Source: a virus. From it: DNA of 27,446 bases. The position numbers and the translations under genes are program-made. Of the stretch, positions 144 to 27,446 are shown one piece after another. The notes under the pieces are model-generated. The model was not told the DNA's origin, did no database searches, and was given only the letters and a program-made list of their open reading frames with translations. Each line of letters begins with the position of its first letter. Position 1 is the first letter of the stretch. The stretch covers positions 1 through 27,446 of IMG/VR virus record IMGVR_UViG_3300037460_000298. One strand, given 5' to 3'.

Positions 144-656
144 AAAAAAGCCGGGAGATTAATTATTTTGAAAATCGACTTTTGAAACCCCCATAAACAG
201 GGGCTTACAGAGGCTCGGATTTCAAAAAATGCCGCTTTTTTTTTTCAACTTCAACGTTTTTAATTTTTTGCAGAATCACAAAACTTTTATTTTGAGTTTT
301 AGGTTTGTGAATTTTCGCAGAAATGAAAAAAGATTTTTTTCAGTTTCAGAGTTTTAATTTTTTAGCAGAATCGAAAAACATTTTTTTCCAAAACCGAAAA
401 CCTTTTATTTTTCAAATCTCTTTTGTTTTTTTTTCCAGAATCGAAAACCTTTTATTTTTCAAATCGGTTTTGTAATTTTTTTGCAGAATCGAAAAAGATT
501 TTTTTCAGCTCCAGAGTTTTATTTTTTTAGCAAAAATGAAAAAGGATTTATTTCACCAGAAAGAGTTGAATTTTTTGAAAATGGACGCCCTGTGTCGCCC
601 TATTCATGCGGGTTTCATTTTCCGTTTTTCAAAAAAATAATTCTCCCGGCTTTTTT
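144..656. repeat. Element with 87-bp imperfect terminal inverted repeats
   Basis: Bases 144-230 match the reverse complement of 570-656 without gaps (paired positions sum to 800). A hand count gives 65 of 87 identical. The outer 15 bases (AAAAAAGCCGGGAGA) are identical, and both arms share a core GAAACCC.CAT.AA.AGGG. Weak similarity continues outward to about 133 and 667. The 340-bp core is T-rich on the + strand. No transposase is present and no target-site duplication was seen. It could be a MITE-like insertion, a replication or recombination site, or a bidirectional terminator; the sequence does not decide. Confidence 0.7.
269..545. repeat. Degenerate T-rich direct repeats
   Basis: Variants of GCAGAATCGAAAA followed by long T-runs recur. 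A 24-base segment at 395-418 is repeated exactly at 442-465 (47-bp shift). A segment starting GCAGAA.(T/C)GAAAAA at 317 recurs at 483 with similar downstream text (166-bp shift). The units are imperfect and of uneven length, which suggests slippage or unequal recombination rather than a clean array. Confidence 0.6.
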
Positions 657-9429: not shown

Positions 9430-9582
9430 ATGCACAGAACAGGAGAAACAATCGATCGCAGACGGCAGTACATTAAAGAGCGCATGCACAACAGGTCAAC
9501 ATCAGTATCAAGTGAAGTGCGCCGGATTGCCAGGGACTTATTTATTTCCGAACGGACCGTTTATCGCGATCTTCACTGTTGA
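9430..9582 (+). CDS. 50-residue helix-turn-helix protein
   Basis: The small frame from ATG 9430 to TGA 9582 encodes a very basic protein (GETIDRRRQYIKERMHN...) ending in SSEVRRIARDLFISERTVYRDLHC. The final 24 residues form a clear HTH pattern (helix, ISERT turn, recognition helix VYRDL), as in the N-terminal parts of resolvase-like and DeoR-like regulators. It stands alone between two structural operons, behind an AT-rich region with an inverted repeat and ahead of a terminator. A role as regulator of the following capsid operon is inference. A remnant of a larger gene is possible. Confidence 0.6.
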   Translation: MHRTGETIDRRRQYIKERMHNRSTSVSSEVRRIARDLFISERTVYRDLHC

Positions 9583-22361: not shown

Positions 22362-22598
22362 AACCCCTGGAGAATTCATTATTTGAATTCCACCCGACCA
22401 ACGGGAGGGAATAAGACCAGGAAAAACCGCCATGTCACTAATTTAATTATATTTGATTACCATAATTCTGGTCAAGCCAATTATTTCTATTTAACATAAT
22501 ATCTATTATAGTCCACTTTTTTGATCGCCGTTGAGGTGGTGGATAACTAAAATTTGCCTTCAGGAAAATAAACCGTTAACTTTCAGTGAAGTAAACCG
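22362..22598. other. Gene-free stretch before the small-gene region
   Basis: No supported gene. It holds a short inverted repeat (GAATTC at 22372 and 22385 around seven AT-rich bases), an AT-rich stretch (22440-22510) with TATATTTG at 22448-22455 that fits a -7 box but has no -33 box at the right distance, and a CCAC...GTGG inverted pair near 22513 and 22541. Confidence 0.5.
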
Positions 22599-22841
22599 AT
22601 GGTTATGGAGTACTCAGAAGTGAACCTTTTTCTGCTCGGAATTGACCGCCTCGGATATCGACCGTTCCATGCGGCATATATGGAGCCTTTCGATTTAATA
22701 TTTTTCACGAACGGATCCCAGGTCTTAATTCTACAAAACCTGGGAGTTTTCCGAGGGATGAGAATCTATCATTCCAGCCAACTCCAATCAGTAACCGACG
22801 AAATCTCCCGGATCCGGATCCAGGAGAAGCTCGGATTATAA
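22599..22841 (+). CDS. Small protein of unknown function
   Basis: The 80-residue product reads VNLFLLGIDRLGYRPFHAAYMEPFDLIFFTNGSQVLILQNLGVFRGMRIYHSSQLQSV and ends EISRIRIQEKLGL. Alternating strands in the middle and a charged C-terminal helix suggest a small alpha-beta domain. No family is recognised. ATG 22599 is used; ATG 22605 (MEYSEV) is as good. It lies alone, upstream of the first promoter module. Confidence 0.55.
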   Translation: MVMEYSEVNLFLLGIDRLGYRPFHAAYMEPFDLIFFTNGSQVLILQNLGVFRGMRIYHSSQLQSVTDEISRIRIQEKLGL

Positions 22842-22863: not shown

Positions 22864-22943
22864 TTAAAAGACGGTTTATCTTGCTGAGTCCTTGCGTGTT
22901 CCAGGGAATTGTGTTATATTTGAATATAACAAAAACGATAAAC
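22864..22943 (+). promoter_or_regulatory. Promoter module 1 of 4
   Basis: TTAAAAGACGGTTTATC (22864-22880), TTGC (22892-22895), 19-bp spacer, TATATTTG (22915-22922) and leader AACAAAAACGATAAAC up to ATG 22944. The right palindrome arm GTTCCAGGG is present, but the left arm has decayed to TTGCTGAGT. The module is shared with 23757, 24768 and 25992. Confidence 0.85.
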
Positions 22944-23090
22944 ATGAAAGCAGCAGAAAAATACACAGCAGAATGGTTCAAAAACGAACATATAATCGAC
23001 GTAGAAAAATGCTCGCGCAACAGAGGCCATTACGGAAGAACAATATCAGACAGAGCAACTGCAGAATTGAAAAGAAGATCCACAAAATAA
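22944..23090 (+). CDS. 48-residue basic protein, first gene of cassette 1
   Basis: Read from the ATG directly after the module leader (ACGATAAAC-ATG), it encodes MKAAEKYTAEWFKNEHIIDVEKCSRNRGHYGRTISDRATAELKRRSTK, given here as its start MKAAEKYTAEWF and end ELKRRSTK. A longer frame begins upstream at 22881, but that part is the promoter itself. It is Lys/Arg-rich and not recognised. Three more small genes follow. Confidence 0.55.
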   Translation: MKAAEKYTAEWFKNEHIIDVEKCSRNRGHYGRTISDRATAELKRRSTK

Positions 23091-23101
23091 AAAAAAAAGC
23101 C

Positions 23102-23251
23102 ATGACAGCAATGACCACAGTATTAGCCAGCACCAAAGAAGCACTCCAGGAACAACTCGATCACCTGGCCGATTCATACAGAATGACCCCTTCCATCTGG
23201 ACCTGGAACGCAATAATGCAAGTAAAACAAGCAATGACCGAAACCAAATAA
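23102..23251 (+). CDS. 49-residue protein of unknown function
   Basis: Starting at ATG 23102 after an A-rich leader, it encodes MTAMTTVLASTKEALQEQLD...SIWTWNAIMQVKQAMTETK. It is helical and mildly acidic, and looks like two helices. The open frame extends upstream through the promoter and the preceding gene in another frame; that part is spurious. No family recognised. Confidence 0.5.
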   Translation: MTAMTTVLASTKEALQEQLDHLADSYRMTPSIWTWNAIMQVKQAMTETK

Positions 23252-23261
23252 AACAAACGAG

Positions 23262-23477
23262 ATGAGCAATAAAATAAACAACCCAAGCGCAAGATTCTGG
23301 ACTCGCACCCAACTGAAACAAACCGTCAAAGAAGCAAAAACTGCCGGACTCCACGTCCACCAGGAGCAAGACATGACCAGCATCACGGATCCAGGAAACC
23401 AGGACCGCCTGGTGCTCCGGTCCCTGAATAACGGTCGGAACGAAATGGTCCGATTAGATAAATCATACTTCGCATAA
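23262..23477 (+). CDS. 71-residue protein of unknown function
   Basis: The product starts MSNKINNPSARFWTRTQLKQTVKEAKTAGLHVHQEQDM and continues ITDPGNQDRLVLRSLNNGRNEMVRLDKSYFA. A helix followed by short strands and charged turns suggests a compact alpha-beta fold. It follows the previous gene by 10 bp. Not recognised. Confidence 0.6.
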   Translation: MSNKINNPSARFWTRTQLKQTVKEAKTAGLHVHQEQDMTSITDPGNQDRLVLRSLNNGRNEMVRLDKSYFA

Positions 23478-23501
23478 ACAACCGATAAAAAAACGATAGA
23501 C

Positions 23502-23759
23502 ATGAAAACAAGCGCCAAAATGGTAATGATGAGCCACCTCTCCGATGCACAATTTGAATATACAATCGGATTCGCAGATCCTAAAGACACCCAGGAATCC
23601 AGGGACAAAGCGAACCTCCGCCTGAACTTCGTAAAATACATGATCGACAAACTTCTGGATGACCGCCTGGATAATTTAGGCCAGCCGCTGACGAATCACC
23701 TGGAGGTGGATCCGGACGAAATGTTTAAGGAATTTCTGGAGCTAAAAATAAATGACTAA
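23502..23759 (+). CDS. 85-residue acidic protein of unknown function
   Basis: The product begins MKTSAKMVMMSHLSDAQFEYTIGFADPKDTQESRDKANLRLNFVKYMIDKLL and ends EMFKEFLELKIND. It is helical and acidic. The leader AAACGATAGAC-ATGAAAACA is close to the leader of the promoter modules. Its stop (TAA 23757-23759) overlaps the first bases of promoter module 2. Not recognised. Confidence 0.6.
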   Translation: MKTSAKMVMMSHLSDAQFEYTIGFADPKDTQESRDKANLRLNFVKYMIDKLLDDRLDNLGQPLTNHLEVDPDEMFKEFLELKIND

Positions 23760-23836
23760 AAGACGGTTTATCTCCCTGGAACCTTGCGTGTTCCAGGGAT
23801 TTGTCGTATATTTGAATATAACAAAAACGCAAAAAA
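23757..23836 (+). promoter_or_regulatory. Promoter module 2 of 4
   Basis: TAAAAGACGGTTTATCT, then a perfect palindrome with arms CCCTGGAAC (23774-23782) and GTTCCAGGG (23790-23798) around a 7-base loop. The loop holds most of the -33 element TTGC (23784-23787). A 19-bp spacer and TATATTTG (23807-23814) follow, with an A-rich leader to ATG 23837. It overlaps the stop codon of the gene before. Confidence 0.9.
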
Positions 23837-24025
23837 ATGACAACTTACGACAAACTGGCCAGACACGAAAATTTCTCCACGGCGGATTTTTTCCACCTCT
23901 CAGACAAAGGTTATACAAACGAGGAAATCCTCGGAATTTGGGACCGCGACCTGGCAGCTGGCCGGGGACCAGTAACCTCTTACGATTTCAATAAAACAGT
24001 ACAATTTTTTGCAAACAATAAATAA
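23837..24025 (+). CDS. 62-residue protein, first gene of cassette 2
   Basis: The product MTTYDKLARHENFSTADFFHLSDKGYTNEEILGIWDRDLAAG...FNKTVQFFANNK has a helical pattern with FHLSDKGYTNEEILGIWDRD, which looks like a small UBA- or HTH-like three-helix fold. No family is recognised. It begins 22 bases after the -7 box of module 2. Confidence 0.6.
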   Translation: MTTYDKLARHENFSTADFFHLSDKGYTNEEILGIWDRDLAAGRGPVTSYDFNKTVQFFANNK

Positions 24026-24035
24026 ACCAGGAACC

Positions 24036-24200
24036 ATGCACACCACCTTAGAAAATAAAGTAATAGCAGAACAGGAAAATTACCTGGCAACTTCAGACAG
24101 CGACCTTTACATGATTTGCAAAAACATTTATAAGCATCACGGAGAAGAAGCAACCCTGGAGCAGATCGCTGAAGAAGTAGAACTTTTTTATAACAACTAA
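24036..24200 (+). CDS. 54-residue acidic protein of unknown function
   Basis: From ATG 24036 it encodes MHTTLENKVIAEQENYLATSDSDLYMICKNIYKHHGEEATLEQIAEEVELFYNN. Key blocks are DLYMICKNIYKHHGEEATLEQ and EEVELFYNN. The frame extends upstream to 24009, but that ATG lies inside the previous gene, and the leader AAACCAGGAACC precedes 24036. It is all-helical and acidic. Not recognised. Confidence 0.55.
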   Translation: MHTTLENKVIAEQENYLATSDSDLYMICKNIYKHHGEEATLEQIAEEVELFYNN

Positions 24201-24213
24201 AAAACTGGAAACG

Positions 24214-24762
24214 ATGAACATCACAGAAACACAGTATCAGCTGGCTTATTTGAGGCAAATGGAACAAAATAACCTGGAGCTTTGGAGAACAGAAGAAGCC
24301 GCCGCTCAACCAAACGACCTCGGCCAATTATATTTTGACGCTTATCAAGCCTATAAAGGATCCGCTGACAAATTGGACCTGGCCATTAAATACCTGGGTG
24401 AAGCGCAAGAAATCTCCGCAAAAATAAAGGAGCACAACCAAACCGAGGACTTGAAGGATTCGAACATTTACCTCCTGGATGATATGGGACCAGGATCCCT
24501 TCAGCGAATTTTTAACGAGCACGATCACCTGATCGTCATGGACTGGATTACCAGCCTCGCCTGTAAAGGAAACGTCGAAGCTGACATGATAATGGACGAA
24601 ACAATCCATGGCGACAAATACAGCGCCAGCCTGGTGGTCAAATACCAGGGTCACCGTTTCAGCATATACTCCAGCTTCGGAGATTTCCGCTTCGGATCCG
24701 AAAGCGGAAACACGGTCCCGGACCAGGTAATCGAAAACTTCATAAATGAGATCAAAAAATAA
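24214..24762 (+). CDS. 182-residue protein of unknown function
   Basis: This is the largest complete gene of the small-gene region. The N-terminal half is helical (TETQYQLAYLRQMEQNNLELWRTEEAAAQ, then DLAIKYLGEAQEISAKIKEHNQ). The C-terminal half is mixed, with DHLIVMDWITSLACKGNVEADMIMDETIHGDKYSASLVVKYQGHRFSIYSSFGDFRFG. No membrane segment or known motif is seen. It closes cassette 2; promoter module 3 begins five bases after its stop. Confidence 0.65.
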   Translation: MNITETQYQLAYLRQMEQNNLELWRTEEAAAQPNDLGQLYFDAYQAYKGSADKLDLAIKYLGEAQEISAKIKEHNQTEDLKDSNIYLLDDMGPGSLQRIFNEHDHLIVMDWITSLACKGNVEADMIMDETIHGDKYSASLVVKYQGHRFSIYSSFGDFRFGSESGNTVPDQVIENFINEIKK

Positions 24763-24767
24763 TAGTA

Positions 24768-24846
24768 TTAAAAGACGGTTTATCTCCCTGGAACCTTGCG
24801 TGTTCCAGGGATTTGTCGTATATTTGAATATACAAAAACGATAAAC
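24768..24846 (+). promoter_or_regulatory. Promoter module 3 of 4
   Basis: TTAAAAGACGGTTTATCT, a perfect palindrome (arms 24786-24794 and 24802-24810), TTGC (24796-24799), 19-bp spacer, TATATTTG (24819-24826) and leader ending ACGATAAAC-ATG. From the box to the -7 element it is almost identical to module 2. Confidence 0.9.
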
Positions 24847-25014
24847 ATGAAAACAGCAACAAACAAGCAACTAACAAAAATCGCGGCGGATAAATTGGAC
24901 CTGGAAACATTAGAAACCAGGATGAGCGACGGCTTAGATTTTCACGACCTGGCCGTCTGGCAAATAAAAGAAGCTCTCCAGGCAGCGTTCGAATTAGGAC
25001 AAAAAAGCAAATAA
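24847..25014 (+). CDS. 55-residue protein, first gene of cassette 3
   Basis: From ATG 24847 it encodes MKTATNKQLTKIAADKLDLETLETRMSDGLDFHDLAVWQIKEALQAAFELGQKSK. The pattern is two or three helices with an acidic middle and DFHDLAVWQIKEALQAAFE-LGQK end. The frame continues upstream to 24796 through the promoter, which is not coding. Not recognised. Confidence 0.6.
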   Translation: MKTATNKQLTKIAADKLDLETLETRMSDGLDFHDLAVWQIKEALQAAFELGQKSK

Positions 25015-25034
25015 TCAAATAAACGATAAACATC

Positions 25035-25223
25035 ATGAAAAACAGATTCTACATTTTAACCTTCAAAGGGACAACTTTAGAAAAGCTGCAAGCACAACTG
25101 GATCATGAGCTCATTATGCTCCAGGACGACGGAAACGAAATAATCGATTGTCAGATCCTCCAGGATCCCCAAAACTGCCGGATGCTAATCGGAATTATAA
25201 AATACAAATACATAAACGAATGA
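25035..25223 (+). CDS. 62-residue protein of unknown function
   Basis: Behind the leader AAACGATAAACATC-ATG it encodes MKNRFYILTFKGTTLEKLQ...LIMLQDDGNEIIDCQILQDPQNCRMLIGIIKYKYINE. A strand-helix-strand-strand order suggests a ferredoxin-like small fold. The stop overlaps an ATG as ATGA (25220-25223). Not recognised. Confidence 0.6.
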   Translation: MKNRFYILTFKGTTLEKLQAQLDHELIMLQDDGNEIIDCQILQDPQNCRMLIGIIKYKYINE

Positions 25224-25228
25224 ACATC

Positions 25229-25507
25229 ATGAGAGCGAAAATTAAAAGAAACGACTCCGGCACAATCAGAGAGATCCCGGTCACGGTCCCGGAATATGAC
25301 CAGGAAACGGTCGACTGGTACGTTCAAAAATTCTTCCAGAAAATGATGGATCCCATTTACGGATGCGAAATGCAAACAGCAAAAGACTGGGTCACCGGGA
25401 CCAACAGCGCAACCAATGAAATCGAGAAGTATGAAATTTATAATGCGATTGAGGACAACTGCCGGATTTGCCCGATTGGATCCCGGACCTATTTAATCAG
25501 AAAATAA
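25229..25507 (+). CDS. 92-residue protein of unknown function
   Basis: The start at 25229 is chosen because the leader (AAACGAATGAACATC-ATG) matches the shared one; ATG 25220 (MNIMRAK) overlaps the previous stop and is also possible. The product reads MRAKIKRNDSGTIREIPVTVPEYDQ, VDWYVQKFFQKMMDPIYGCEMQTAKDWVTGTNS and YNAIEDNCRICPIGSRTYLIRK. It has three Cys, too few for a metal site on their own pattern. Not recognised. Confidence 0.55.
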   Translation: MRAKIKRNDSGTIREIPVTVPEYDQETVDWYVQKFFQKMMDPIYGCEMQTAKDWVTGTNSATNEIEKYEIYNAIEDNCRICPIGSRTYLIRK

Positions 25508-25521
25508 AAAACGAAAACATC

Positions 25522-25767
25522 ATGAAACAATTAGAACTTTTCTTAGACAAATTAATCCGCTCCGGCTTTGATTGGACCTGTAACTGGCAGCACGACGTGA
25601 ACAACTCCCGCCTGGACCATTACACCATCCGCAAAAACGATGAAAGCATCCAGGTTATATTTCAGATATTCTCCGGATCTAAAGGATTCACCAATTACAT
25701 CGAAAGCCAGCAACTCGATTATGACCGGATGATTACGGAATTTAACCAGGCACTCAGACCTGAATAA
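25522..25767 (+). CDS. 81-residue protein, paralogue of the next gene
   Basis: From ATG 25522 (leader AACGAAAACATC-ATG) it encodes MKQLELFLDKLIRSGFDWTCNWQHDVNNSR..., with YTIRKNDESIQVIFQIFSGSKGFTNYIESQ near the middle. The VIFQIF....GF..Y motif and a preceding W.Q segment also occur in the next gene, so the two look like a diverged tandem pair. The family and function are unknown. It touches the next start directly. Confidence 0.6.
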   Translation: MKQLELFLDKLIRSGFDWTCNWQHDVNNSRLDHYTIRKNDESIQVIFQIFSGSKGFTNYIESQQLDYDRMITEFNQALRPE

Positions 25768-25986
25768 ATGGCAAACGATTTAAAATTCCGGGATTCCAGG
25801 AAACAATTTTATGCCTGGAAAAATAAGACAAACAAGATCTCCGGGTTTTGTCTTTGGCAAATCGAATTTGCAGGATTTCTCCTGGAGGCATGGAATGACC
25901 AGGACGGTCACATGGTAATTTTTCAAATTTTCGAGAATGGCCGTGGCTTCCTGGTTTATAAACCAGATAGAAATTACTATAAATAA
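25768..25986 (+). CDS. 72-residue protein, paralogue of the previous gene
   Basis: The ATG follows immediately after the previous stop (TAAATG). The product contains FRDSRKQFYAWKNKTNKISGFCLWQIEFAGFLLEAWNDQDGHMVIFQIFENGRGFLVYKPD. It shares VIFQIF....GF..Y with the gene before. A beta-sheet with aromatic core is likely. Function unknown. Promoter module 4 follows five bases later. Confidence 0.6.
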   Translation: MANDLKFRDSRKQFYAWKNKTNKISGFCLWQIEFAGFLLEAWNDQDGHMVIFQIFENGRGFLVYKPDRNYYK

Positions 25987-25991
25987 ATTCA

Positions 25992-26070
25992 TTAAAAGAC
26001 GGTTTATCTCCCTGGATCCTTGCGTGTTCCAGACTTTAATGCTATATTTGAATATACAAAAACGATAAAC
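25992..26070 (+). promoter_or_regulatory. Promoter module 4 of 4
   Basis: TTAAAAGACGGTTTATCTCC, TTGC (26020-26023), 19-bp spacer, TATATTTG (26043-26050) and leader ending ACGATAAAC-ATG. The palindrome is reduced: only CTGGA and TCCAG still pair, and bases after CCAG have changed to ACTTTAATGC. Confidence 0.85.
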
Positions 26071-26382
26071 ATGAAAACAACAGACGCAAAAAGGACAGAA
26101 TTAACCGCAAAATTAGAGAATTTCCTGGCGACTTTTCCAGACAACGCAACCAGCTGGAGAGAAGCAACCGACGAAATCAGGGACCTGGCTTATAAGATTC
26201 GCTCAACGTATAACGAACTTACCCTGGACGTCATAGAGGGAGATGAAGGTTACATCGAAAGCCTGAATTATACAAACTTCAGGACACCCGCAGAATGGAA
26301 CACAGGAACCAAAAAGCAGATCAGGAACCTCTGGACCAAGATGAACGACTGGAGCCGCCTCTGCGCCATGAACGAACAATAA
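26071..26382 (+). CDS. 103-residue protein, first gene of cassette 4
   Basis: From ATG 26071 it encodes MKTTDAKRTELTAKLENFLATFPDNATSWREATDEIRDLAYKIRSTYNELTLDVIEGDEGYIESLNY and TKKQIRNLWTKMNDWSRLCAMNEQ (shown in parts: LENFLATFPDNATSW, LAYKIRSTYNEL, RNLWTKMNDW). It is helical and acidic. The first 15 coding bases are identical to those of the next gene. The frame upstream to 26020 is promoter. Not recognised. Confidence 0.6.
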   Translation: MKTTDAKRTELTAKLENFLATFPDNATSWREATDEIRDLAYKIRSTYNELTLDVIEGDEGYIESLNYTNFRTPAEWNTGTKKQIRNLWTKMNDWSRLCAMNEQ

Positions 26383-26417
26383 AAGCAACCACAGTATAAA
26401 CGATAAACATCACAGCC

Positions 26418-26744
26418 ATGAAAACAACAGACATTCAAGAGAAGTACAGGAACACAAACCAGGCCATTTTATTCACCGGGATTTATGAACTGATAAGCAA
26501 GACAGGAATCCACAGCAAGGTCATGGTCGACATAAAAAACGATTCTTATGACGCGCAGAGTTACGCAAAAATACAAACCTGGACACCAGCTGGATGGGTA
26601 TTTGTAACCAGCCTGAACTGGAAGGACACCCGGAGCCAGGAAATATTTAACCAGAAAAAAGTGGAGAGTTTCACCACGCGAGAATTCAGAGCATTCCAGG
26701 CAGACAAAGATCAACTCCTGGTGCTGGCCGACAAAATTATTTAA
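26418..26744 (+). CDS. 108-residue protein of unknown function
   Basis: The product begins MKTTDIQEKYRNTNQAILFTGIYELISKTGIHSK and contains VMVDIKNDSYDAQSYAKIQTWTPAGWVFVTSLNWKDTR and FTTREFRAFQADKDQLLVLADKII. It has strands in the middle with aromatic residues and a helical end. Its leader (AAACGATAAACATCACAGCC) and first 15 coding bases repeat those of the gene before. Not recognised. Confidence 0.6.
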   Translation: MKTTDIQEKYRNTNQAILFTGIYELISKTGIHSKVMVDIKNDSYDAQSYAKIQTWTPAGWVFVTSLNWKDTRSQEIFNQKKVESFTTREFRAFQADKDQLLVLADKII

Positions 26745-26767
26745 TAACCATATAAACGATAAACATC

Positions 26768-27446
26768 ATGACAACAGAAATCGAAATTCTACAAAACAAG
26801 GTGCTGAAACGAGCAGAAAACAACATGCCCAGGATCAGCGAAGTAATTACACAGATCCAAACCGAGGACAAGCTGCTCGGAGATGCCCTGGTTCATACGA
26901 ACCGCTTTAAATTCCAGGCAGCAGGATCCGGAATGATAATGAATTATGGCGATGAGCAAAAACACATGGGCAAATTTGCCACCAGGCAGATCGCTAATAA
27001 ATTCGGGATCCCGACGCAATATTTGAATCGCCTGAACGAATCTCCATGGGGACCAACTCTCGCGGCGGATATTATGAACCGCCACGCCCAGGAATCAGAA
27101 CCACAAAGACTCCTGGTCAGATCCGTAGAAGATGAAGTCAGGGGAGTTTTATCGGATTCATATAAACGGATAAATTCAATGACCGTATTCCTGGCATTCC
27201 TCCAGGCAGCAACCGAGAAGGAAGCGAAATTATATGACGCGGCAATTGATGAAACAAAATCCTTCATCGAGGTAATTGTCCCGGAAATAGTACAGATCGA
27301 CACCCCGAACAATGGAATGGTAAATATGATAATGGGTGCAGAGCTAAGAAATAGCGACTTCGGAGATGGACGCCTGAATCTCAGAACCTACCTTATGAAC
27401 GTAGTATGCCTGAACGGGATGATCGGGAAAAAATTTATGAACGAGG
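26768..27446 (+). CDS. DUF932-like protein (3' end outside window)
   Basis: The frame is open from ATG 26768 (leader AAACGATAAACATC) to the window end, 226 codons with no stop. It contains KFATRQIANKFGIPTQYLNRLN near 76-97, then LLVRSVEDEVRGVLSDSYKRINS near 116-138, the 'vR...g.vrgvLSd.Y..i.n' block of DUF932 phage/plasmid proteins, and LRNSDFGDGRLNLRTYLMNVVCLNGMIG at the end. DUF932 members are common in phage and plasmid accessory regions with unknown role. It is the only gene in the right-hand region that resembles a known family. Confidence 0.65.
   Translation, partial: MTTEIEILQNKVLKRAENNMPRISEVITQIQTEDKLLGDALVHTNRFKFQAAGSGMIMNYGDEQKHMGKFATRQIANKFGIPTQYLNRLNESPWGPTLAADIMNRHAQESEPQRLLVRSVEDEVRGVLSDSYKRINSMTVFLAFLQAATEKEAKLYDAAIDETKSFIEVIVPEIVQIDTPNNGMVNMIMGAELRNSDFGDGRLNLRTYLMNVVCLNGMIGKKFMNE

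Follow-up and report, generated by a model that had tools for sequence, protein, structure and literature searches.

Results

The stretch analysed here (the window) is a virus contig of 27,446 bases, IMG/VR record IMGVR_UViG_3300037460_000298, for which no end repeats are listed. It codes for a portal protein, a Mu-type minor head protein, a head maturation protease, a major head protein, a tail sheath and a tape measure protein. Among named phages, the portal protein matches Flavobacterium phages best (about 30% identity), and the phage belongs to the Bacteroidota phages. Four copies of one promoter module are located between positions 22,866 and 26,070, each followed by a cluster of small genes (Table 1). 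An earlier note on this DNA (the original prediction) had counted fifteen downstream genes, and this count is right (4 + 3 + 5 + 3, the last gene being cut by the window end). Its description of these genes as tiny and unknown holds for part of them, since DUF6900, phrog_10108 and phrog_1362 (DUF932-type) could be assigned.

Table 1. Promoter modules, gene clusters and start-associated motifs in the window.
Feature	Position	Strand	Details
Upstream gene	22599..22841	+	just upstream of module 1; same place in the relative G002, 43% identical
Module 1	22866..22943	+	box 22866-22880 (-61 to -47); -33 TTG 22892-22894; -7 TATATTTG 22915-22922; predicted start 22927, leader 17 nt (TAHHTTTG rule, PMC6847099)
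Cluster after module 1	22944..23759	+	open reading frames 22944-23090, 23102-23251, 23262-23477, 23502-23759; no convincing family, no Pfam match above cut-off
Module 2	23758..23836	+	box 23758-23772, overlapping the stop codon of the upstream gene; -33 TTG 23784; -7 23807-23814; predicted start 23819; divergent leader
Palindrome of module 2	23773-23799	+	perfect, TCCCTGGAAC-N7-GTTCCAGGGA, centred on the -33 element
Cluster after module 2	23837..24762	+	open reading frames 23837-24025, 24036-24200, 24214-24762; no family found
Module 3	24770..24846	+	box 24770-24784; -33 TTG 24796; -7 24819-24826; predicted start 24831; leader TACAAAAACGATAAAC
Palindrome of module 3	24785-24811	+	perfect
Cluster after module 3	24847..25986	+	24847-25014 (DUF6900), 25035-25223, 25229-25507, 25522-25767, 25768-25986
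Module 4	25994..26070	+	box 25994-26008; degenerate palindrome; -33 TTG 26020; -7 26043-26050; predicted start 26055
Cluster after module 4	26071..27446	+	26071-26382, 26418-26744 (phrog_10108), 26768 to window end (phrog_1362, DUF932-type)
Motif ACGATRAACAT / ACGATAGACAT before internal genes	23493..26767	+	sites 23493, 25023, 26400, 26756

All four modules belong to a single 102-nt repeat family. In a scan of the window, the upstream box AAAAGACGGTTTATC was found exactly four times, always on the plus strand, and with up to three mismatches just one extra match appeared, at 9551 in the structural-gene region. TTGC-N19-TATATTTG is likewise exact in every module and occurs at no other site of the window. 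The start-to-start distance from box to TTG is 26 bp in all four modules, and the gap between box and TTGC, given as 10 to 12 bases in the original prediction, is constantly 11. The four shared modules that had been claimed are thus borne out by exact repeats of box and core at fixed spacing. In an alignment anchored on TTG, 52 of 69 columns are invariant, with uninterrupted runs of 17 nt upstream (TAAAAGACGGTTTATCT), 15 nt over the -33 element (CCTTGCGTGTTCCAG) and 14 nt (TATATTTGAATATA); column shuffles gave two equally long runs in 53 of 100,000 cases. Pairwise identity among the modules is 81-94%, with 94% between modules 2 and 3. The flanks reach 21-47% upstream and 23-37% in the downstream coding DNA, so the similarity is confined to the module. 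A common leader up to ATG was confirmed for modules 1, 3 and 4 (AAAAACGATAAACATG), but not for module 2 (AAAAACGCAAAAAAATG). Whereas the box is exact in all four modules, a perfect palindrome is confined to modules 2 and 3, in agreement with the earlier claim that the box stays conserved even without the palindrome. These two modules fold as a 10-bp stem (z ~ -4), whereas modules 1 and 4 fold no better than shuffles, and a search against Rfam gave no match. The centres of box and palindrome lie about 21 bp apart, which corresponds to two helical turns.

Promoters of the Bacteroidota sigma-ABfr possess a -33 TTTG and a -7 element TANNTTTG, the latter revised to TAHHTTTG (PMC6847099), and an identical -7 box was described in Flavobacterium psychrophilum (PMC9723704). 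Every module contains TATATTTG, which fits TAHHTTTG, in the arrangement TTG-N20-TATATTTG, which fits a -33 TTG/TTTG at about 19-21 bp. Judged by these motifs and their regular distance, the core is an ordinary Bacteroidota sigma-A promoter, so that unmodified host sigma-A should read the modules. With the G of the -7 element taken as -5 (PMC6847099), the predicted transcription starts leave leaders of 16-18 nt and put the box of every module at -61 to -47. The host consensus has neither a box at this position nor a block over -33; the modules have both. The upstream box is therefore not a host core-promoter element, and in this the original prediction was correct.

A search with the major head protein identified the closest syntenic relative, the 38,534-base record G002 (match L219, 78% identity). 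Most structural genes of the window have homologues in G002 in the same order. In the small-gene region, homologues were found for the genes at 22599 (43%), 25768-25986 (L243:15681-15911, 57% identical) and 26768 (L243:14158-15228, 61% identical). The last of these, truncated by the window end, is related to a 356-amino-acid G002 protein that we take to be DUF932-type, a label that goes back to the annotation of a plasmid relative. G002 carries four modules of its own on the coding strand (L243 18247, 17361, 15657 and 13852), spelled TTCANCGGTTCAA..TGTTTGGTAGTCTGAAA..TATCTTTG. Their host-type core is that of the window, whereas the overlay sequence is different, and in both phages the conserved block covers the -33 element plus the adjoining half of the spacer. 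The first G002 module comes directly after the homologue of 22599, in parallel to module 1, and the third directly after the homologue of 25768, in parallel to module 4. Module identity is 0.81-0.94 within the window and 0.59-0.82 within G002, but 0.31-0.43 (TTG anchor) or 0.34-0.51 (-7 anchor) between the phages; as a scale for this divergence, the DUF932-type genes of both phages share 57.5% DNA identity in an ungapped alignment. The upstream boxes of the two phages both contain CGGTT, possibly by chance, since its distances differ by 8-9 bp. Downstream of the G002 modules lie an LPD29 gene, a run of small genes, the DUF932 gene and a DUF3799 (PDDEXK) exonuclease gene followed by RecT. G002 also encodes ParA and an HTH_36 protein and has palindromic repeats GTGTACCGATAATCGGTACAC, which together suggest that it can exist as a plasmid-like prophage; such signs were not seen for the window phage. 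Five of these repeats lie at L243 8310-8540, between the HTH_36 gene and the next gene and near ParA; they look iteron-like and could possibly be the plasmid origin of a phage-plasmid.

A second repeated element was observed directly before start codons. ACGATAAACAT or a close form precedes at least seven presumed early genes of the window, both promoter-proximal and cluster-internal (Table 1), and motifs of the ACGATRAACAT type are also present within modules 1, 3 and 4 (at 22935, 24838 and 26062). Six exact copies were counted in the early region of the window against 0.002 expected from shuffles, and none of the inspected structural genes of the window has the motif. In G002, ACGATTAGACA or a close form was found nine times, all in the early region and inside clusters too. 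The forms of the two phages differ by one base in length, and when aligned they appear to be one motif. Used as a search pattern, the G002 leader gave four matches in G002 and one in each of 16 other contigs, the one-base difference excluding the leader of the window. In Bacteroidota, adenines at -3, -6, -12 and -13 help translation starts (PMC6847099), and the A-rich leader motif is in keeping with this context.

To look for the module elsewhere, 2.9 million viral contigs and about 85,000 genomes were scanned, collections from which near copies of the window genome were possibly left out. The window module was not found again in either. The box alone matched 98 viral stretches where roughly 80 would be expected by chance by our own rough estimate (15 bases, about 40 Gb, both strands), and among the 80 stretches listed, not one is similar to the module. 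A relaxed module pattern matched 18 viral and 90 genome stretches, with a similarly rough chance estimate of about 10 and 67; the best of them is identical at 39 of 64 positions, much of which is imposed by the pattern. A DNA search against phages and plasmids gave no match, and searches with the DUF932 and 25768 proteins yielded G002 as the sole lead. The loci matching DUF6900 are without the module, with one TTG-TAnnTTTG match among seven loci. The original prediction had proposed further copies in related phages as its test. The box itself was not found in the relatives, so that, taken literally, the refuting outcome of no further copies was obtained; G002 nevertheless has differently spelled modules at matching places, and the idea persists in a modified form. 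In a more distant relative, G004, three promoters on the minus strand (L244 12817, 9293 and 6002) share TTGTTTATATCAAAA and TATCTTTG with no upstream box visible; perhaps they are another lineage-specific set. Nothing clear was seen in G003 and G005, and no repeated module was visible in lotta8-1 (Winoviridae).

Further features were recorded in both genomes. In each phage, the 22599 gene or its homologue is closely preceded by a site in which ATTTAACATAA is followed by six central bases and a second arm that has diverged (in the window at 22489-22516; in G002 on the minus strand at 38438, near the start of L242). Both sites resemble the dif site of XerCD recombination, as known from E. coli, and may serve dimer resolution or integration. 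CCWGG is found 211 times in the window, where shorter words predict about 136, and once in G002, where about 20 would be expected. This opposite bias suggests different restriction pressure in the hosts of the two related phages. A/T-rich degenerate direct repeats with units such as TTTTTTGCAGAATCGAAAAA occupy window positions 240-560, an apparently non-coding segment before the gene at 793.

Discussion

Repeats with fixed spacing, together with the counterpart set in G002, support the earlier view of the modules as co-regulated promoters of one gene set. We put the probability at about 0.55 that the modules are promoters of one co-regulated early set, in which a host sigma-A core is combined with a lineage-divergent site for a single phage-encoded repressor. 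In this model, each module would be a host sigma-A promoter with a leader of 16-18 nt, overlaid with a two-part regulator site. The box at -61 to -47 would form the first part and CCTTGCGTGTTCCAG over the -33 element, with its palindromic extension in modules 2 and 3, the second. An overlay at these positions is typical for a regulator, and the spacing of 21 bp between the centres suggests that one protein could contact both box and palindrome, the box providing an additional contact at a distance of two helical turns. The regulator would block polymerase and thereby keep or turn the early clusters off. Modules that are similar within a phage and divergent between phages are most simply explained by a lineage-specific trans-acting factor. 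Site and regulator would then drift jointly, and every phage lineage would have its own version. Copying among modules could contribute to keeping a set alike.

For the putative regulator, repression is a more likely mode of action than activation. It is favoured by the conserved -33 block, which covers the sigma contact, by the dyad symmetry that modules 2 and 3 show around -33, and by a core that appears self-sufficient. In addition, a plasmid-like prophage state of G002 would lead one to expect a repressor. Several observations weigh against this interpretation. No regulator gene was identified in G002 or in the window, where the phage is incomplete and lacks about 11 kb when compared with G002. 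The helix-turn-helix genes found in G002 belong to HTH_17, HTH_8 and HTH_36. For the gene tied closest to module 1 (22599-22841), the predicted fold is helix-four strands-helix and not helix-turn-helix, and a fold search with its product gave no significant match. The full palindrome is intact in just two of the four modules, and the identity between phages was measured on two genomes, with one relative. Moreover, -54, where the upstream box stands, is a usual position for an activator too.

An activator is the leading alternative, although clearly the less probable one. The box would bind an activator of the phage, which brings host polymerase to the promoters in a middle-type switch, with the -33 block touched by both activator and sigma. 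Its fixed distance to the core in all four modules, and its rank as the longest invariant block, retained where the palindrome is lost, speak for this possibility. However, a core with good -33 and -7 elements should need no help, and -33, where a bound protein normally blocks polymerase, is covered by the second invariant block and by the palindrome. Of the activator at the box that the original prediction had proposed, the box as an addition to the host promoter stands, but the -33 block argues at least equally for repression. It is rather doubtful that one promoter was simply copied recently among small genes by recombination, as a mobile or duplicated cassette without a shared regulator, in the manner suggested for regulatory cassettes of the T4 type. 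The repeat does fill the intergenic gap up to the first codons, and modules 2 and 3 are very alike. On the other hand, the invariant columns are grouped in three blocks instead of being scattered, and G002 retains modules at two orthologous positions despite their different sequence. There is little reason to regard the palindrome as a terminator or RNA hairpin of the upstream cluster beside a plain promoter: the stem of modules 2 and 3 directly follows the upstream stop codon, but modules 1 and 4 form no stable stem, a proper T run is missing, and box and -33 block would be left unexplained. Finally, a phage-modified polymerase reading the box as an UP-like element, comparable to T4 with its extra upstream consensus at early promoters, some of them stimulated by Alt (PMC2988021), is very improbable, since the core is a regular Bacteroidota promoter that does not need it and the box is phage-specific, not A/T-only, and replaced in G002 by another sequence at another distance.

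The set in G002 also bears on the function of the clusters. The analogous promoters of G002 stand before RecT, the DUF3799 (PDDEXK) exonuclease and DUF932, which strengthens the earlier idea of an early system, and the module set is probably an early/recombination regulon. The uncharacterised small genes would thereby be marked as one regulon with RecT-type recombination genes. A host-type core with a phage-specific overlay, spelled in two ways in two phages, offers a direct handle, as the regulator should follow the spelling. The leader motif may merely be a good start context, or it may be a class-specific signal. It is tempting to speculate about a two-layer code in a host without Shine-Dalgarno sequences, in which a phage-specific operator at each promoter is combined with an early-only ACGAT-A-ACA-ATG motif, promoter-proximal as well as internal, that a phage or host factor would read to set translation of the early class; we regard this as unlikely.

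The timing of genes in Bacteroidota phages seems to be little known, and no literature on repeated early promoters in these phages was found. T4-type phages reportedly carry mobile promoter/stem-loop cassettes, said to have been described by Arbiol et al. in 2010; here, the stem is intact in just two of four copies. The early promoters of T4 (PMC2988021) are similar in being repeated strong host-type promoters with an extra consensus before small early genes, but belong to another host and sigma factor. In Cluster A mycobacteriophages (L5, Bxb1), operators and stoperators diverge between relatives together with the repressor (PMC6550527). As in the window, these are multiple copies of a phage-specific site (here four), most of them oriented alike, and their consensus differs between relatives (here one relative). 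However, the 13-bp sites of L5 and Bxb1 are asymmetric, number 20-30 and mostly lie away from promoters, although some overlap early promoters, whereas all four sites described here lie inside a promoter. The host phylum also differs, and the cognate repressor is known there and was not found here. Cluster K mycobacteriophages possess the start-associated motif SAS and ESAS, an extended, subcluster-specific inverted repeat (PMC3203893, PMC12699233). Common to both systems are a short motif directly before the start codons of many small genes and a longer element in some copies, with imperfect inverted repeats and a consensus varying by subcluster. The SAS consensus GGGATAGGAGCCC is unrelated to the window leader ACGATAAACAT, which we do not file as SAS; here the start motif is A-rich, in keeping with a host that lacks Shine-Dalgarno sequences, and a promoter can be recognised within the upstream element. 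In summary, without sharing their sequences or, as far as tested, their regulator, the system of the window resembles the operator/stoperator and SAS/ESAS systems in its working.

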